Made by a program: the position numbers and the translations under genes | Notes under the pieces: generated by a model | Databases searched by the model: none | Seen by the model: the letters and a program-made list of their open reading frames with translations, nothing else | What the model was told of the DNA's origin: nothing | Part shown: positions 23,263-31,315 of the stretch, one piece after another | How positions within the stretch are numbered: position 1 is the first letter of the stretch | How the letters are laid out: each line of letters opens with the position of its first letter | Assembly: GCA_024638565.1 (NCBI GenBank) | Contig: JAHEKC010000019.1 | Coordinates: forward strand, 1-36,409 | Length of the DNA stretch: 36,409 nt | Reading direction: 5' to 3' | Origin: Bacteroidota bacterium | GTDB taxonomy: Bacteria > Bacteroidota > Bacteroidia > AKYH767-A > OLB10

Positions 23263-26169
23263 CTACGCCAGCGTCCGCTTGACGGCTACCTGCTCGTAGC
23301 CTTCGATGATATCGCCTACCTTGATGTCGTTGTAGTTCTCCACGCTCAGGCCGCATTCGAAACCGGTAGCCACTTCCTTGACATCGTCCTTGAAACGCTT
23401 CAGCGAGGCCAGCTGGCCCGTGAAGGCGACGATACCGTCGCGGATGATGCGGATATTGGTATTCCGCGTGACCTTGCCGTCCATCACCCGGCAGCCGGCC
23501 ACCGCACCCACCTTCGGGATTTTGAATACTTCCCGCACTTCGATGTTGCACGTGATCTTCTCCTCGTACTCCGGCGCCAGCATGCCTTCCATGGCGTCCT
23601 TGACTTCGTTGATGGCGTCGTAGATGATGGAATAAAGCCGGATGTCGATCTGCTCCTGTTCCGCCAGCTTGCGTGCGCCCATGCTGGGCCGCACCTGGAA
23701 GCCCACAATGATGGCATTGGAGGCCGAGGCCAGCAGCACGTCAGATTCCGTGATGGCACCCACAGACTTGTGGATTACATTCACCTGCACCTCCTCGGTC
23801 GAAAGCTTGAGCATGGAATCGGAAAGCGCCTCGATACTTCCGTCGACGTCGCCCTTGATAATGATGTTGAGTTCCCTGAACGAACCGATGGCTAGCCTTC
23901 GGCCAATTTCGTCAAGGGTAATGTGCTTGTGCGTACGGATACCCTGTTCACGCTGCAACTGCATGCGTTTGTTCGCGATGTCCCGTGCCTCACGCTCGTC
24001 GTCAAGCACGTTGAACTGGTCGCCGGCCTGCGCCGCGCCGTCGAGTCCCAGGATCATGGCTGGCGTGGACGGCCCGGCCTCATCCATGCGCTGGCCCCGT
24101 TCGTTGAACATGGCCTTGACACGGCCGCTGTAACAGCCTGCCAGCACCACATCACCCATCTTCAGCGTGCCGGTCTGCACCAGCACAGTGGATACGAATC
24201 CCCGGCCCTTGTCGAGCTCGGACTCGATCACTGTACCCTTGGCATTCTTGCCTGCATTCGCTTTCAGGTCCAGCAGCTCTGCCTCCAGCAGGACCTTCTC
24301 CTGCAGCGCATCCACACCCTTTCCTGTCTTGGCTGATATTTCCTGGCTTTGGAATTTGCCACCCCAGTCCTCCACGAGGATGTTCATTTTAGAAAGCTCC
24401 TCCTTGATCTTCTCTGGATTGGCGTCTTCCCTGTCGATCTTGTTGATGGCGATGACGATGGGAACACCTGCCGCCTGCGCATGGTTGATGGCTTCCACCG
24501 TCTGGGGCATGATGCTGTCGTCCGCGGCAATAACGATGATGGCCACGTCCGTAAGCTGCGCCCCCCGGGCCCTCATCGCCGTAAAGGCTTCGTGTCCGGG
24601 TGTATCCAAAAAGGCAATCTTCTTTCCGTTATCAAGCGTCACCTCGTAAGCGCCGATGTGCTGTGTGATGCCTCCGGCCTCACCCGCGATGACGTTGGCG
24701 CTGCGGATATAATCGAGCAGCGAGGTCTTCCCGTGATCTACGTGGCCCATCACGGTTACGATGGGCGCACGTGAGGAAAGATCTTCCTCACTGTCCTCCG
24801 ACTCCTGGATCGCTTCGGATACATCCGCGGAAACGAATTCAACCTTGCAGTTGAACTCTTCCGCCACGACGCTTAGTGTTTCCGCATCCAGCCGCTGGTT
24901 AATGGAAACGAACATCCCCAGGCTCATGCAAGCCGAAATGACATCAGTTACCGGTACACCAATCAGGTTGGCGAGTTCGTTTGCCGACACGAATTCGGTA
25001 ACCTTGATTGTCTTTTGGCCCGTTTCCTCCTTCTGAACGGTTTTGGCCGATTCTTTTTTCCGGTCCTTCATCCGTTGCTTGCGCCGGCTTCCACCGCGCG
25101 ACTTGCCGCCGCTGAGGCGTGCCAGTGTGGCTGAAATCTGGTCCTTGATCTGCTTATCTGACAATTCCGGTGCCGGACCCTTGTGCCGGCCGCGGCGCTG
25201 GTCGCCCCGACGCTGCTTCCAGTCCGAACCGGTGTCCTGCGTCTGGCTCTGGAACCGGGAGATATTGACTTTCTTATCCGTACGCTTCCGGCGCTTCTTT
25301 TTCTTCTGGTCGTCGGAAGAGGCCGCGGGTTTTTTCTTTTCCGGGACTTTCGGAAGGTCGATCTTGCCCAGGATGGTGGGGCCTGAAAGTTTTTCCCTTT
25401 CGGTCCGGTATGGAGCGCCCTCGCTATCGGTTTTTTCCTCCGCTTCGGGCTTCACCTCCGCGGGCGGCTCCGCTTCCGCAACCGGTGGCGGTGCCGCCTC
25501 TTCAACAGGCGCAGGGGGTGCGGCAGGGGCTGCCGGCACTTCCTCCTTTGGCACCTCCGCAACTTCTTCCTCCGCCTTCTTTTCTGCCGCCTTGCGTGGA
25601 GCCTTCTTTGCGGGCGCCTTCTTAACGGGCGCCTTCTTAACGGGCGCTTTTTTAACGGGCGCTTTCTTCTTGGGTTCTTCCTCCTCTGCCGGTGCCGCTT
25701 TGGCTTTCCTGGCTGCCGGTTTCTTGGCTTTCTTCGTTTCCGGCTCTACAGCCTCCGGCTTCTCCTTCTCTTTTTCCTTCTTCTTGGCAGTCGTTTTCTT
25801 GGTCGCTGTCTTCTTGACTGTCCGCTTCTGCTTTTCTACCGCCTCCTTCTTGATATTGATCAGTTCCTCAACCAGCGTATCCTTGGCTTCGTCCTTGGCG
25901 GGTTCCTCTTTCTTAACGGCAGGAGGCGCTTCAATGACGATATTCTCTTTCCGGAACTTCTCCTTGGTAATCTCTGCGGCGACCTTTTTTATCTCCTTGT
26001 CCTGCTGGAATTCCTGCTGCAACAGCACATAGGCATCCGCGGTGATCTTGGCATTGGGATTCTTGGCCAGCTTGATGCCATTCTTGGCCAGGAATTCAAC
26101 AATGTGATCCAGCCCCACGCCAAGTTCCTTGGTTGCCTTGCTAAGTCTTACCGTTTTTTCTCCAGCCAT
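23263..26169 (-). CDS. infB: Translation initiation factor IF-2
   Basis: A 968-residue GTPase that places initiator fMet-tRNA on the 30S subunit and promotes 50S joining. The N-terminal IF2_N segment (about 1-55) begins [22 protein letters not shown] long low-complexity region (85-380) is rich in Lys, Ala, Pro and Glu and includes the repeat KAPVK from residue 169. A second IF2_N-like segment (387-450) precedes the G domain, with GHVDHGKT at 475-482 (G1), DTPGH at 522-526 (G3) and NKID at 576-579 (G4). Domains II, III and the fMet-tRNA-binding IV follow; the protein ends VKRTLA. It is the last gene of rimP-nusA-infB, 54 bases after nusA, and convergent with glnN. Confidence 0.98.
25612..25671. 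repeat. Four tandem 15-bp units inside infB
   Basis: Four units of the GGGCGCCTTCTTAAC type lie at 25612-25626, 25627-25641, 25642-25656 and 25657-25671. The first two are identical; the third and fourth differ by a few bases. On the minus strand they encode the Lys-Ala-Pro-Val-Lys repeats of the IF-2 linker. The unit is a multiple of 3, so copy-number change would not shift the frame. Confidence 0.85.
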
Positions 26170-26223: not shown

Positions 26224-27462
26224 TTATTCAAATTCTTCCTTCAGGATTTTAATAACTTCGTTCACCGTTTCCTCCTCAAGGTCGGTCCGCTTGACAAGCT
26301 CCTCGATATCGAGATCCAGCACGCTCTTGGCGGTATCGCATCCGACCTTCTTGAATTCCTCGATGATCCACTCGTCGATCTCGTCCTTGAATTCGTCGAG
26401 ATCCACATCCTCCTCACTTTCCTCATCCCCCTCGCGGTATACGTCTATTTCGTAACCCGTCAGCTTGCCGGCCAGGCGAATATTGTATCCGCCCTTGCCG
26501 ATGGCCAGTGACACCTGGTCGGGCTTCATATACACCGAAGCGCGCATGTTCTCGTCGTCCAGCACGATATTTGAGATCTTCGCGGGGTTAAGGGCACGCT
26601 GGATATACAGCATGACGTTGTTGGTGAAATTGATGACGTCAATGTTTTCATTCCTCAGTTCGCGTACGATACCATGGATCCGCGATCCTTTCATGCCCAC
26701 GCAGGCGCCCACGGGATCGATCCTGTCATCATATGACTCAACGGCCACCTTGGCACGTTCGCCCGGTTCACGGACAATGTTCTTGATGGTGATCAACCCG
26801 TCGAACACCTCCGGCACCTCCAGTTCGAAAAGGCGTTCCAGGAAGATGGGTGAGTTGCGGGACAGGATGATGCGGGGGTTACCACCCTGCATCTCCACAC
26901 GCAACACCACTGATCTTACCGTATCGCCTTTCTTGAAGAAATCCGAAGGAATCTGCTCTGTCTTGGGCAGGATCAGTTCATTGCCTTCGTCATCCACCAC
27001 CAGAATCTCCTTCTTCCACACCTGGTAGACCTCGCCGGTGATGATGTCCCCTGCACGATCCTTGTACTTACGGTAAATGCCGTCCTTCTCCAGCTCCAGC
27101 ACCCGGGATACCAGGTTCTGGCGGGCTGACATCACGGCACGACGCCCGAAATCCGCCAGCTTCACCTCTTCGGTCACATCCTCCCCCACCTCGAAATCGG
27201 GTTCGATTTTCACCGCCTCCGAATAAGCGATCTGTGTATTGGGGTCTTCCACCAGGCCATCTTCCACGATGAGCCTGTTCCGCCATATCTCCAGGTCGCC
27301 CTTGTCAATATTGATGACGATGTCGATGTTTTCGTCGGTACCATATTTTTTACGCGCCATACCCTTGAAGACATCCTCCAGGATGCTCATCATCGTGGCA
27401 CGGTCTATATTCTTGAATTCCTTGAATTCCTGAAACGAATCGATTAAAACACCATGTTCCAT
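26224..27462 (-). CDS. nusA: Transcription termination/antitermination factor NusA
   Basis: A 412-residue RNA polymerase-binding factor. The N-terminal domain (about 1-125) starts MEHGVLIDSFQEFKEFKNIDRATMMSILEDVF and binds polymerase near the RNA exit channel. An S1 domain lies near 130-200 (GDIITGEVYQVWKKEILVVDDEGNELILP). The KH1/KH2 region covers about 225-345, with ERAKVAVESYDDRIDPVGACVGMKGSRI and SLAIGKGGYNIRLAGKLTGYEIDVY. The rest (about 345-412) is an acidic tail that ends in a helix-hairpin-like unit and lacks the two full acidic repeats of E. coli NusA (495 residues), as usual in this phylum. It is the middle gene of rimP-nusA-infB. The 108 bases between rimP and nusA contain no clear terminator. 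Confidence 0.97.
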   Translation of the reverse strand: MEHGVLIDSFQEFKEFKNIDRATMMSILEDVFKGMARKKYGTDENIDIVINIDKGDLEIWRNRLIVEDGLVEDPNTQIAYSEAVKIEPDFEVGEDVTEEVKLADFGRRAVMSARQNLVSRVLELEKDGIYRKYKDRAGDIITGEVYQVWKKEILVVDDEGNELILPKTEQIPSDFFKKGDTVRSVVLRVEMQGGNPRIILSRNSPIFLERLFELEVPEVFDGLITIKNIVREPGERAKVAVESYDDRIDPVGACVGMKGSRIHGIVRELRNENIDVINFTNNVMLYIQRALNPAKISNIVLDDENMRASVYMKPDQVSLAIGKGGYNIRLAGKLTGYEIDVYREGDEESEEDVDLDEFKDEIDEWIIEEFKKVGCDTAKSVLDLDIEELVKRTDLEEETVNEVIKILKEEFE

Positions 27463-27570: not shown

Positions 27571-28026
27571 TCAAAATACAAACTCCACATGCGCCTCGCT
27601 GATCTCGTCATAACCGAAGTGGCGGGTCCGTTCCCCACCCTCCTGCTTTCGCTTCTTCTTTCCCTTCACCTCCCGGATGTCGAACCCGGAAGCATCGGCA
27701 CCTGTCATCTCGCCTTTCCACTCGCTGCCGTCCGGCAGAACCACCCTCAGGCGCTTCCCGATACGTGATACAAACTGGCGGTAGTCGCGCAGCGGCACTT
27801 CGGGTCCCGGTGAGGAGACCTCGATTTCGTGCCTGGAAGTGTACTCCTCCAGCTCAGGGGCATCACGCAATGCGCGGTTGAGTGCCGCGCAAAGGCTGAC
27901 ATTGATCCCTTCCTCCCGGTCGACATAGACCGTTAGCTTACCCGGCGTCTCCCTGGTTTCCACCAGGAACATGCCCGTCCCCTCCAGGTGCCTGTGAATT
28001 AGGCTTTTCATCTCATCAGGACCCAT
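27571..28026 (-). CDS. rimP: Ribosome maturation factor RimP
   Basis: A 151-residue protein that binds the 30S precursor and assists late small-subunit assembly. The N-terminal alpha/beta domain contains FLVETRETPGKLTVYVDREEGINVSLCAALNRAL, where the RimP family has its typical VYVDxxxGIxxxxCxxxxRxL pattern. The linker EVSSPGPEVPLRDYRQF matches the conserved EVSSPGxxRPL sequence. The C-terminal SH3-like barrel (about 87-151) is basic in the middle (EVKGKKKRKQEGGERTR) and ends FGYDEISEAHVEFVF. It is the first gene of the rimP-nusA-infB operon. A -7 promoter element and a terminator-like hairpin sit in the short region upstream. Confidence 0.96.
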   Translation of the reverse strand: MGPDEMKSLIHRHLEGTGMFLVETRETPGKLTVYVDREEGINVSLCAALNRALRDAPELEEYTSRHEIEVSSPGPEVPLRDYRQFVSRIGKRLRVVLPDGSEWKGEMTGADASGFDIREVKGKKKRKQEGGERTRHFGYDEISEAHVEFVF

Positions 28027-28030
28027 CGCT

Positions 28031-28060
28031 AAACAAAAGAGGGGACTTTTGGCCCCCTCT
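28031..28060 (-). terminator. Terminator-like hairpin in the rimP leader
   Basis: On the minus strand AGAGGGG (28060-28054) pairs with CCCCTCT (28044-28038) across a 9-base loop. TTTGTTT follows (28037-28031), then AGCG and the rimP ATG at 28026. The shape is that of an intrinsic terminator. It could end transcription from the upstream methyltransferase gene, but since the likely rimP -7 element (28079-28086) is upstream of it, it would also lie within the rimP leader and could attenuate the operon or hide the start codon. Confidence 0.65.
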
Positions 28061-28078
28061 ATATCAATCTGATCCGTG

Positions 28079-28086
28079 CAAATATA
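28079..28086 (-). promoter_or_regulatory. -7 promoter element of the rimP-nusA-infB operon
   Basis: On the minus strand TATATTTG matches TAnnTTTG at every defined position. No good TTG is found 17-23 bases upstream. Transcription would start near 28072, giving a leader of about 45 bases that holds the terminator-like hairpin. Confidence 0.55.
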
Positions 28087-28128
28087 GTAAATCTTTGCCC
28101 TGCCTCCCCGATCCCACTCGGGATTATT

Positions 28129-28794
28129 TTACTGGATGATAGCCTTTTGCACTTCCGGGCGCCGGTAAAGCCGGGCCCGGATAAAGCCTCCCATGAAACA
28201 GTTTTCGCGTTCCATGCAAAGTCCGTGGCGGGCGAACAAAACGTCATAGTCCGGCAATGCCGTGGCACGGATTCCGGCCACCCCCCTGAAAAAGCAATAC
28301 ATGGTGATGGTCAGCAACCGGTGGCTGAGCCGCCGGGAGGCATGGAAGTCCGTAATAAGCCAGGTGCCGTTCGGTTGAAGCCTGCCTTTCACCTCTTCCA
28401 TCACCTGCTCCGCTTCCTGTTTGCAAAGGCCGTCCAGCAGGAAGTTCGTGCAAACGACATCATAGCCGCTTCCGGGAATGCAGGAATGATCGCCCCGCAC
28501 AAAGGTGACACCCGCGGCACCCGTTCCGGCGCGCCGGCGGGCCCTGCGCAGCATGGCCTGTGAGGGTTCCACGAAATCCACCCGCACGGTGGGCACCGCC
28601 GCGAGCAGCTCCGGCAACAGATCGCCCGTGCCACCACCGAGGATCAGGATGCGGGCCCCGGGCCTGAACCGCGTGAGAAAGCTGGCCCGGGCGCGGTTCA
28701 TCGACCGCCCCAGGAAAAACCTGGCCAGCGGATCATAAACCGCCGCTACGCTGTCGTATCCATGCTTTTGAATCCGGGGGGCCTTTACTCCCAT
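28129..28794 (-). CDS. Class I SAM-dependent methyltransferase
   Basis: A 221-residue cytosolic enzyme. Motif I is ILILGGGTGDLLPELL (49-64), the glycine-rich SAM loop; DFVEPSQAMLRRARRR (73-88) carries the acidic residue for the SAM ribose, and FVRGDHS and YDVVCTNFLLDGL complete the core fold. LQPNGTWLITDFH (139-151) is the usual strand 5 region. The last 70 residues form a variable cap that sets the substrate, with VLFARHGLCMERENCFMGGFIRARLYRR. The fold resembles UbiE/ubiquinone-type methyltransferases, but the substrate cannot be read from the sequence. I chose ATG 28794 because it leads straight into the conserved N-terminus; it overlaps the ABC permease stop by 10 bases, which implies translational coupling. 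A terminator-like hairpin lies 69 bases past its stop. Confidence 0.85.
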   Translation of the reverse strand: MGVKAPRIQKHGYDSVAAVYDPLARFFLGRSMNRARASFLTRFRPGARILILGGGTGDLLPELLAAVPTVRVDFVEPSQAMLRRARRRAGTGAAGVTFVRGDHSCIPGSGYDVVCTNFLLDGLCKQEAEQVMEEVKGRLQPNGTWLITDFHASRRLSHRLLTITMYCFFRGVAGIRATALPDYDVLFARHGLCMERENCFMGGFIRARLYRRPEVQKAIIQ

Positions 28795-29900
28795 CGGAAA
28801 GTCTTGAATGCAACTGCATACAACACCACACCCCAGGCGCATAGCACCAGCAACTGGTTAGTAATATCTCCCATGCCGGCACCCTCAAAGGCCACCTGCC
28901 GGAGTGCATCATTCAGGTAGGTAAGCGGCAGCGCGCGGCAAAGGGGTTGCAGCCATTCAGGGTAGACGTCAATGCTGAAAAAGGTTCCTGAAAGTAGGAA
29001 CTGCGGGAGCGTTATCAGGTTGGCGAGCGGCGGGATGGCGCTGTCATTTCTTGCCACGCCGGAAACGATGAACCCGAAGCCCATGAACAGCGCCAGGCCT
29101 ATGGCTGAAAGCAACATCATGGTAAGGACGGTGTACAGGCCGTTCACCAGGGTAAACCCGAACGCGTAATAGCCGATGGTGATGATTACAAGGGCGCCAA
29201 GCAGGGAGAAGACCATGCGGGACCCGGCTTCACCAAGGATAATAAACGGCCTCCTGATGGGCGTGGCGAAAAACCGCTTGAGCACGAGCGTTTGCCGTAG
29301 GTTGAAAAACACGAATGCAGTACCGAATACGCCGGCGCTCAGCAGCGAAAAGCCAAGCTGGCCCGGCAGGATGAAATCTATGGTCCTGTACTTCCGGCCG
29401 GTGACCTGCACGCGCTGCAATGCGGCAGCAGCACCCCGCAGGTGGGCCTCGTCGATGTTCATCCTGTTGACCGTATTTTCAATGATAAGGCTGATCACCT
29501 CCCCTTTTGCCGGGGATGCGTCCGAGGTTTTTAGCTCGACCCGGTACGCTGGTTTCGAGCCCGTGGATCGGATGTCCACGACTGCATCGACCCTGCCCCG
29601 TCGCAGGTTTTCCATCATGCCGGCGGTGTCATGCCGTACCATTCGGACCGACGAATTCTCTTCCAGCACCTTGTACACCGGGTTGTCCGTGTCACTGCCT
29701 GCGGAAATACCTACCTTGATCGTAAAGGCACCACTGCCAATGAACCCGAACACAATGATGAATATCAGGGGAAAGGCAATGGTAAACACCACGGCCGACG
29801 GACTGCGTGTGATGGCGCGGAAGCTGGCCCGTGATATGGCCAGCATGGCACGCACCTGGCTGTAACGATCCCCATGGCGGGACGGCCCTTGATTACTCAT
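28785..29900 (-). CDS. ABC-2 type transporter permease
   Basis: A 371-residue inner-membrane protein. One helix at about 36-56 (SAVVFTIAFPLIFIIVFGFIG) is followed by an extracytoplasmic domain (about 60-175) and then five helices, near 182-204, 230-250, 258-282, 292-310 and 347-365, the usual topology of YhaP/LinJ/DrrB-like exporters. The segment LVNGLYTVLTMMLLSAIGLALFMGFGFIVSGVARNDSAIPPLANLITLPQFLLSGTFF carries the ABC-2 signature. It works with the ATPase encoded just upstream: the genes overlap by 8 bases (29893-29900). It also overlaps the downstream methyltransferase gene by 10 bases. Substrates of this family include lipids, drugs and polysaccharides; none can be chosen here. Confidence 0.92.
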   Translation of the reverse strand: MSNQGPSRHGDRYSQVRAMLAISRASFRAITRSPSAVVFTIAFPLIFIIVFGFIGSGAFTIKVGISAGSDTDNPVYKVLEENSSVRMVRHDTAGMMENLRRGRVDAVVDIRSTGSKPAYRVELKTSDASPAKGEVISLIIENTVNRMNIDEAHLRGAAAALQRVQVTGRKYRTIDFILPGQLGFSLLSAGVFGTAFVFFNLRQTLVLKRFFATPIRRPFIILGEAGSRMVFSLLGALVIITIGYYAFGFTLVNGLYTVLTMMLLSAIGLALFMGFGFIVSGVARNDSAIPPLANLITLPQFLLSGTFFSIDVYPEWLQPLCRALPLTYLNDALRQVAFEGAGMGDITNQLLVLCAWGVVLYAVAFKTFRWE

Positions 29901-30733: not shown

Positions 30734-31315
30734 ATGATCCGGATTGACCGCACCGTTGTCAGTGATGATGTCATTGAGGAGCAATTCGTATGTGACCTTG
30801 CCCGATGCAAGGGCGCCTGTTGTGTGGAGGGGGAGTCGGGTGCACCGCTGGAATCCGGTGAGCCTGAAACCCTGGCATCGATCTACCCCGCCGTAGAGCC
30901 TTACATGACGGTCGAGGGACGGGCCGCCGTGGCGTCACAGGGTGTTTATACGGTCGACAGTGATGGCGACGATGTGACCCCGCTTATCGCGGAACGGGGC
31001 GCCTGCGCTTATGCCGTGTTTCGTGACGGCGTGGCCGCCTGTGCCATCGAACACGCCTATCGTGATGGCGTTACCGGTTTTCAAAAACCCGTTTCATGTC
31101 ATTTATATCCCGTGCGCATCACTCCTTATAAACAATACGATGCCGTGAACTACCATGCCTGGGGCATCTGCAAGCCTGCCTGCAGGCTTGGAGCGAAACT
31201 GAAGGTTCCCGTGTACCGGTTTTTAAAGGAAGCCCTGCAAAGAAAATACGGGAAGGCCTGGTACGACAAGCTTTGCCGGGTAGTGGCAACCTCGGAAAAG
31301 AAACCCGCATCCTGA
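30734..31315 (+). CDS. DUF3109 cysteine-cluster protein
   Basis: A 193-residue cytosolic protein of the DUF3109 family, widespread in Bacteroidota. Cysteines are arranged like a metal site: C20, C25, C29 and C30 in FVCDLARCKGACC, then single cysteines in ERGACAYAV, AACAIEHAY, PVSCHLYPVRI and WGICKPACRL. The spacing C-x4-C-x3-CC resembles the YkgJ/zinc- or iron-sulfur-binding group, so a bound metal cluster is likely but the metal is inferred. SCHLYPVRI and YHAWGIC are family hallmarks. The function is not known. No signal peptide or membrane helix. The gene is divergent from the ABC exporter operon. A palindrome 20 bases after the stop may end its transcript. Confidence 0.88.
   Translation: MIRIDRTVVSDDVIEEQFVCDLARCKGACCVEGESGAPLESGEPETLASIYPAVEPYMTVEGRAAVASQGVYTVDSDGDDVTPLIAERGACAYAVFRDGVAACAIEHAYRDGVTGFQKPVSCHLYPVRITPYKQYDAVNYHAWGICKPACRLGAKLKVPVYRFLKEALQRKYGKAWYDKLCRVVATSEKKPAS

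Follow-up and report, generated by a model that had tools for sequence, protein, structure and literature searches.

Transcription attenuation at the entry to rimP-nusA-infB is already known as a kind, both as the "rimP-leader" defined in 2010 and as NusA attenuation in Bacillus subtilis. The rimP-leader was termed the most ubiquitous transcription attenuator by Naville and Gautheret (2010), who placed it 4–130 nt from the gene start with no visible antiterminator, and saw in NusA the best candidate effector (PMC2965389). NusA-stimulated termination was reported to control entry into the nusA operon of B. subtilis (PMC12288461), and E. coli mutants in which NusA promotes termination less well have raised transcript levels of the operon (PMC6511841). 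In the rimP leader of Streptococcus agalactiae, termination was placed 31 nt after the start (PMC4448216). Closer to the organism studied here, a structured 5´ element upstream of rimP, without an Rfam hit, was put forward as a candidate cis-regulatory element in Flavobacterium psychrophilum (PMC9723704); no link to a terminator or to NusA was found in the parts of that report available to us. A description of the element as a phylum-wide attenuator was not found in the open-access literature searched.

Here, we analyze a window of 36,409 nucleotides, comprising contig JAHEKC010000019.1 from a Bacteroidota bacterium whose assembly (GCA_024638565.1; G000) amounts to 3.02 Mb in 165 contigs. We propose, with a probability of roughly 0.7, that the rimP-nusA-infB operon of this organism is headed by a promoter-proximal, sensor-free attenuator that allows NusA, by stimulating termination, to exert feedback on its own operon.

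The rimP leader of the window

The operon is encoded on the minus strand and its first gene, rimP (27571..28026), specifies the ribosome maturation factor. The product scores 28.4 bits with PF02576, over the cut-off, and 61.3 bits (E 8.9e-17) with NCBIfam model NF002531, under the cut-off of 123; two more in-frame ATGs in the gene would give a RimP of 146 or 133 aa. Downstream on the same strand are nusA (26224..27462; TIGR01953, 377 bits, over the cut-off), the gene with which the element stays, and infB for translation initiation factor IF-2 (23263..26169; TIGR00487, 789 bits, over the cut-off). The co-directional gene upstream of rimP, at 28129..28842 on the minus strand, is a methyltransferase gene that is matched by methyltransferase models below their cut-offs. 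Further away, a DUF3109 gene is found on the plus strand (30734–31315). A DUF3109 gene is directly divergent to rimP in one relative (L049), and genes with similar N-termini occupy this place in L101, L102, L122 and L140. It may be that insertion has brought the window's methyltransferase and ABC transporter genes between rimP and the DUF3109 gene.

The leader itself is compact. On the minus strand, a -7 promoter element, TATATTTG (28079..28086), fits the Bacteroidota consensus TAnnTTTG, the use of which in this phylum has been described (PMC7366714; PMC9723704), and its position predicts a transcription start at approximately 28072. Downstream, a terminator-type hairpin at 28038..28060 is indicated by a terminator scan, by its folding energy and by conservation in relatives. 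The 5´ arm AGAGGGGGC (28060–28052), the loop CAAAA (28051–28047) and the 3´ arm GTCCCCTCT (28046–28038) make up a stem of nine pairs, with six G-C pairs and one G-U pair among them. The stem is followed by the U-rich tail TTTGTTT (28031..28037), the presumed release point of the transcript, and the four bases AGCG separate this tail from the rimP ATG at 28026. By sequence, an intrinsic terminator is thus located between the promoter and the first gene, and since the -7 box precedes the hairpin, rimP's own transcript would traverse it. A sequence-only reading of this DNA had pointed out the -7 box, the hairpin and a U-rich flank ending 4 bases before the rimP ATG, and its coordinates all hold on the minus strand. 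The same reading had named two observations that would speak against it, a transcription start downstream of the hairpin and a stem not conserved in related genomes. Both points turn out in its favor: the stem and the ATG are just 11 bases apart, and relatives keep the hairpin (see below).

Folded as a 33-nt RNA comprising the stem with its flanks, the hairpin reaches -15.8 kcal/mol (z -3.67), and 0 of 200 shuffles are equally low. Nineteen T-tailed hairpins in the window reach -13 kcal/mol, and only the one in the rimP leader is preceded by TAnnTTTG within a 90-base stretch whose end is 20 bases away from the tail; the motif occurs six times in the window when both strands are counted. A generic sigma-70 scan, which does not model the TAnnTTTG type of promoter, returned no promoter at the rimP leader. 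On the opposite strand, a terminator-like hairpin, CCCGATCCCACTCGGG, with a T-rich tail is seen at 28107–28122, in the gap that separates the end of the methyltransferase gene from the promoter of rimP, and no plus-strand gene needing it was identified.

Conservation of the hairpin and replacement of its stem

Counts in relatives were based on leaders adjoining nusA because sequence-only models find these leaders poorly. One such model (R1), built from 39 leaders with 4-nt loops and excluding the window, found the window site at E 3.9e-4 and, when E values up to 0.1 were allowed, had matches in 81 of 118 genomes; many of its listed matches were bidirectional or distant from nusA and resembled ordinary terminators. 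A first set of leaders came from 58 relatives, 80 named contigs and the window. The contigs were the best 80 of 590 with a related NusA, and were mostly titled Bacteroidota or subgroups thereof, with one Chlorobiota and a few labelled "uncultured bacterium". Removal of duplicates (L061–L064, L105), of one locus in which the nusA start was not found (L060) and of five on contigs without the rimP region (L010, L014, L022, L110, L130) gave 128 loci, one of which (L050) turned out to be without rimP. A second set of 118 genomes was drawn evenly from the phylum; nusA was present in 118 of 118, and 60 leader stretches were obtained, 58 of them with an ORF of at least 100 aa at the rimP position.

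An energy-based scan of 184 leaders, 126 from the first set and 58 from the second (L050, L093 with too short a leader, L183 without rimP and L203, too short, were left out), located, in 180 of them, a hairpin of -8 kcal/mol or lower immediately next to a T-rich tract. The same scan was positive in 25 of 184 dinucleotide shuffles, in 13 of 184 stretches of 195 nt before nusA and in 44 of 179 random upstream windows, the last possibly including true terminators. The hairpin with its U-tract in rimP leaders is not a product of chance. Three of the four misses (L042, L074, L179) have both elements outside the scanned stretch; in L074, 165 nt separate the hairpin from the start. In the fourth (L139), the hairpin is present and its U-tract is weak. 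L042 (genome G035) carries an extra ORF of 143 aa between rimP and nusA, with the hairpin remaining before rimP; a simple perfect-stem scan had picked this inserted ORF in place of rimP. That simple scan recorded a hairpin with a T-rich tail in 124 of 128 loci; it chose wrong sites in L035 and L043 and missed L052, all three of which were placed by hand afterwards. At 125 loci, including the window, each of positions three to six downstream of the last C is a T in 82–94% of cases. The distance from stem to start codon has a median of 15 and ranges from -1 to 108, the mis-picked L035 excluded. Conservation of the stem and U-run, for which the sequence-only reading had recommended a look at relatives, is near universal in the sample.

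Most leaders of class Bacteroidia share the stem sequence. The core GGGGAC...GTCCCC is present in 86 of the 128 leaders of the first set, the window having GGGGGC...GTCCCC, and was found nowhere else on either strand in 622,079 bases of these loci. Genome-wide, the strict pattern matched 86 times, at 69 distinct sites spread over 37 of the 61 genomes, and 29 of the 69 sites are before rimP; in G012 and G020, matches on contigs that lack nusA were classed as "other" and may be rimP sites severed by contig ends. The single strict-pattern match in the window's own genome is the rimP-leader site. Across genomes, the Bacteroidia stem sequence is not exclusive to the rimP-nusA-infB operon.

The stem has also been exchanged as a whole. 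Replacements within the class include GAGGCACGC/GCGTGCCTC and GAAGGGAACGG/CCGTTCCCTTC, and outside it AAGTGGGG/CCCCACTT, ATGGGC/GCCCAT and the inverse GATAGCCCG/CGGGCTATT, the hairpin and U-tract being kept throughout. Some other lineages have exactly GGGC...GCCC (L183, L184, L197) and others the inverse, CCCG...CGGG. In view of this replacement of entire stems between lineages, we reject a sequence-specific operator. Inverse polarity before rimP, with a C-rich 5´ arm and a G-rich 3´ arm, was observed outside class Bacteroidia in L178, L185, L195, L196 and L202; these leaders resemble the second upstream terminator described in Gammaproteobacteria (PMC2965389). Among 125 hairpins, the G-C run is nearly fixed, loop sequences vary, and a flanking pair covaries (G-C 58, A-U 33, G-U 14, C-G 6, U-A 6). 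These pair counts were anchored on the C-run, because the variable loops caused a MAFFT alignment of 101 leaders to misplace the 5´ arm. In a 39-row subset chosen for the core (A2), the invariant columns of which partly reflect that selection, two-sided changes fill 10 cells as compared to a shuffled mean of 2.6 and to 0 or 1 in slid controls. The covariation score of A2 exceeds those of all six slid versions and of 500 out of 500 shuffles, which ignore relatedness.

A -7 box accompanies the hairpin in most loci. Of 124 loci, the window included, 105 have an exact TAnnTTTG no more than 50 nt upstream of the hairpin, compared to 38 of 2440 random 58-nt upstream windows; it is missing in 19 loci, some of which have an upstream tRNA-Gln. 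Of a group of 19 loci that were scanned first, ten (L068, L076, L080, L081, L089, L090, L098, L100, L114, L119) carry a tRNA-Gln (TTG) on the same strand shortly upstream of the rimP leader, reminiscent of metY before rimP in E. coli, and 0 of these 10 have an exact TAnnTTTG within 90 nt before the hairpin. The spacing from TTTG to the hairpin has a median of 22 (10–90% range 12–29, n=105), which suggests that the RNA ahead of the hairpin is approximately 5–25 nt long. None of 30 columns examined exceeds 54% identity beyond the second base before the G-run. In most loci, such a short leader leaves no room for a riboswitch, a leader peptide or an antiterminator. Given a leader that is both short and unconserved, a regulator would have to act on the complex of polymerase and hairpin.

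Upstream genes, loss of rimP and the effector

Using a heuristic, the nearest upstream ORF in 124 loci, including the window, was called as co-directional in 60, divergent in 56 and uncallable in 8. A co-directional tRNA-Gln lies between the divergent ORF and the hairpin in 7 of the 56; removing these seven leaves 49 divergent loci out of 116, none of which has a tRNA there, and counting the tRNA-Gln makes the nearest upstream gene co-directional in 67 of 116. With tighter limits (an ORF no shorter than 180 aa and a gap of 10–350 nt), 37 divergent loci remain. One of them, L072, is doubtful, as L075 and L077, to which it is closely related, came out as co-directional. Among the 49, the ORF of L021 runs open into the hairpin. 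All nine divergent ORFs that were checked against Pfam match known families.

These arrangements bear on the simpler view offered by the sequence-only reading, according to which the hairpin merely ends the transcript of the upstream gene, here the methyltransferase, and has no role for rimP-nusA-infB. The window would allow it: the co-directional methyltransferase gene stops at 28129, 68 bases before the hairpin, and the terminator scan of the minus strand from 28129 to 28060 gave no second terminator-like site. The 67 loci with a co-directional neighbour fit as well. Against it, the same hairpin is kept at the 49 loci where the nearest gene is divergent, a -7 box closely precedes it at the 105 loci mentioned above, and in the window the stem is a mere 11 bases from the ATG. 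We reject termination of the upstream gene as the general role and consider it very improbable as the only one; in the genome of the window, read-through from the methyltransferase gene may additionally be stopped by the rimP-leader hairpin.

Genomes in which rimP was not detected allow the element to be separated from this first gene. In the class, 276 of 296 genomes have a match to Pfam RimP_N. Of the 20 without a match, 13 were examined, together with G167 from outside the class; the seven left out belong to genus g31, and both g31 genomes examined do have rimP. G056 and G167 show only sub-cut-off Pfam RimP matches (E 0.08–0.98). A RimP profile built from 34 sequences (A3) recovers rimP in five of the 14 at E 2.3e-28 or better, in all cases adjoining nusA and merely divergent in sequence, and these five keep the hairpin before rimP. 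In the other nine, A3 found no rimP at E up to 1. They represent five families, f20 (G056, G204, G227, G246), f54 (G177), f71 (G194, G220), f87 (G332) and, outside the class, f52 (G167), and are rated 97–100% complete. The gene for this ribosome maturation factor has apparently been lost in five families.

In all nine of these genomes, a TAnnTTTG box is followed by a hairpin and U-tract in front of nusA. The U-tract is 37–284 nt before nusA, with no forward ORF of at least 70 aa between hairpin and nusA in any of the nine. The weakest hairpin is that of G167 (-7.8 kcal/mol), and further, weaker hairpins occur upstream in some. On a NusA tree of 116 rows, which excludes G056 and G167, the seven rimP-less rows need five changes, at least four of them forced by well supported branches; it is a quick tree with long branches (e.g., L221), and the exact change count is uncertain. 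Since the hairpin is kept before nusA in genomes without detectable rimP, the element goes with nusA-infB; the tie to nusA that a NusA attenuator should display is seen in nine of nine cases. Where the locus is long enough, infB always follows nusA (116 of 121, the other five being too short to tell), and NusA and IF2 are therefore inseparable as effector on this evidence.

The rimP-less genomes also bear on the idea that RimP is the effector, binding its own leader RNA and thereby controlling termination. RimP feedback was mentioned as a possibility by the authors of the rimP-leader study (PMC2965389), and rimP is indeed the first gene. We reject this idea and consider it very improbable: nine genomes from five families have no detectable rimP and still carry the hairpin with its U-tract ahead of nusA, and the variable loops and replaced stems leave little for a sequence-specific RNA binder to recognize. 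A post-transcriptional role, in protecting the 5´ end of the mRNA or tuning rimP translation, would suit the closeness of stem and start codon in the window and in the median leader. The leader of approximately 45 nt is also not unusual among 5´ UTRs of Bacteroides thetaiotaomicron (PMC7366714), which have a median of 32 and a mean of 52 nt. Such a role is unlikely in view of the U-tract, which is conserved directly after the stem even where the stem sequence has been replaced, of the wide variation in distance between hairpin and start codon, and of the rimP-less genomes in which the U-tract is far from the start codon of nusA. Also unlikely, to a similar degree, is a terminator or pause regulated by something other than NusA (IF2, NusG, nucleotide supply or elongation state). 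The constant presence of infB behind nusA speaks for it, and in B. subtilis NusG, too, acts as a factor for intrinsic termination (PMC8060035). On the other hand, NusA feedback on this very operon has been reported in E. coli (PMC6511841) and B. subtilis (PMC12288461), and the leader shows nothing that suggests a separate sensor.

We therefore favor attenuation by NusA. In general, NusA stimulates hairpin-dependent pausing and intrinsic termination. In the model, RNA polymerase would start approximately 12 bases before the hairpin, and the hairpin and U-tract would release part of the transcripts as RNAs of approximately 40 nt, the remainder being read into rimP-nusA-infB. As the leader holds little but the hairpin and U-tract, the read-through fraction would most likely be set by the termination machinery itself. 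More NusA would then mean more release and less nusA mRNA, i.e., negative feedback. We infer that transcripts terminate here, only in part, and with an efficiency governed by NusA. The sequence-only reading had suggested that an attenuator here would let NusA control its own operon. Its placement is borne out, with the hairpin between the -7 box and the first gene in most loci, those with divergent neighbours included, and remaining with nusA where rimP was not found; the role of NusA as effector is suggested by experiments in other phyla and by the pattern of rimP loss. In its broadest form, the proposal is of a minimal, sensor-free NusA attenuator kept throughout the phylum, its stem rewritten several times, that was passed to nusA at each loss of rimP, at least four times in Bacteroidia and once outside. 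We hold this to be somewhat better than an even bet.

If this is true, the nusA-infB operon gauges NusA activity by itself and needs no dedicated regulator, and "rimP" in the name of the family is incidental. NusA and IF2 belong to the core machinery of transcription and translation, and hardly any regulatory circuit in a cell could be simpler than a feedback loop consisting of just a hairpin and a U-tract. Whether RimP or NusA is the effector was left undecided in the 2010 description; the separate losses of rimP with the hairpin kept argue against RimP, and the question is now directly testable in Bacteroides or Flavobacterium.

Comparison with described attenuators

Rfam does not capture the element. 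The rimP-leader family, RF01770, gave no match in window positions 27900–28300 at E up to 10, and 0 of 21 genomes of the group exceeded its gathering cut-off of 47 bits, the two weak matches being on contigs without nusA. Rfam as a whole returned only sub-threshold matches to unrelated families in the leader region of the window. Because RF01770 fails to detect it, the element could be considered for a separate Rfam family. It is probably the same as the structured element of F. psychrophilum, judging from its place upstream of rimP in the same phylum; that element was also reported in other genera of Flavobacteriaceae (PMC9723704).

The B. subtilis nusA operon attenuator likewise consists of an intrinsic terminator in the 5´ leader at the entry to the operon, and was reported from experiment (PMC12288461), whereas the NusA step in Bacteroidota is inferred from other phyla and from the pattern of rimP loss. 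The B. subtilis rimP (ylxS) leader is 180 nt long (PMC2965389), as compared to about 45 nt in the window. S. agalactiae has a rimP-nusA-IF2 operon as well (gbs0413–0418), in which short and long transcripts share a start and NusA feedback was proposed; it belongs to another phylum, and its leader termination was seen by RNA-seq (PMC4448216). The E. coli metY-rimP-nusA-infB leader follows the same plan, with a GGGCTTTAGGCCC hairpin and T-run before rimP, but is longer and includes a tRNA and a further T-run hairpin upstream.

In kind, the element corresponds to the rimP-leader of 2010, a short hairpin with a G-rich 5´ arm, a C-rich 3´ arm and a T-stretch before rimP-nusA-infB (PMC2965389). The hairpin and T-stretch in the 5´ UTR of the window (28060–28031), as in the 180 leaders, agree with that description, as does their position, 11 nt from stem and 4 nt from tail to the start codon, with no antiterminator visible. 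The published consensus is GGGc...gCCC and the main text names Firmicutes and Gammaproteobacteria (PMC2965389), whereas most Bacteroidia have GGGGAC...GTCCCC in the same polarity. The strings "Bacteroid" and "Flavobacteri" are absent from that main text, and Bacteroidota may be included in its supplements; no description of the element before nusA in rimP-less genomes was found in the text available (PMC2965389). To the known rimP-leader, the present analysis adds its wide conservation and spread through the phylum, the GGGGAC...GTCCCC consensus in most leaders of class Bacteroidia, the replacement of stems, and the test provided by rimP loss, with evidence that the element accompanies nusA rather than rimP.
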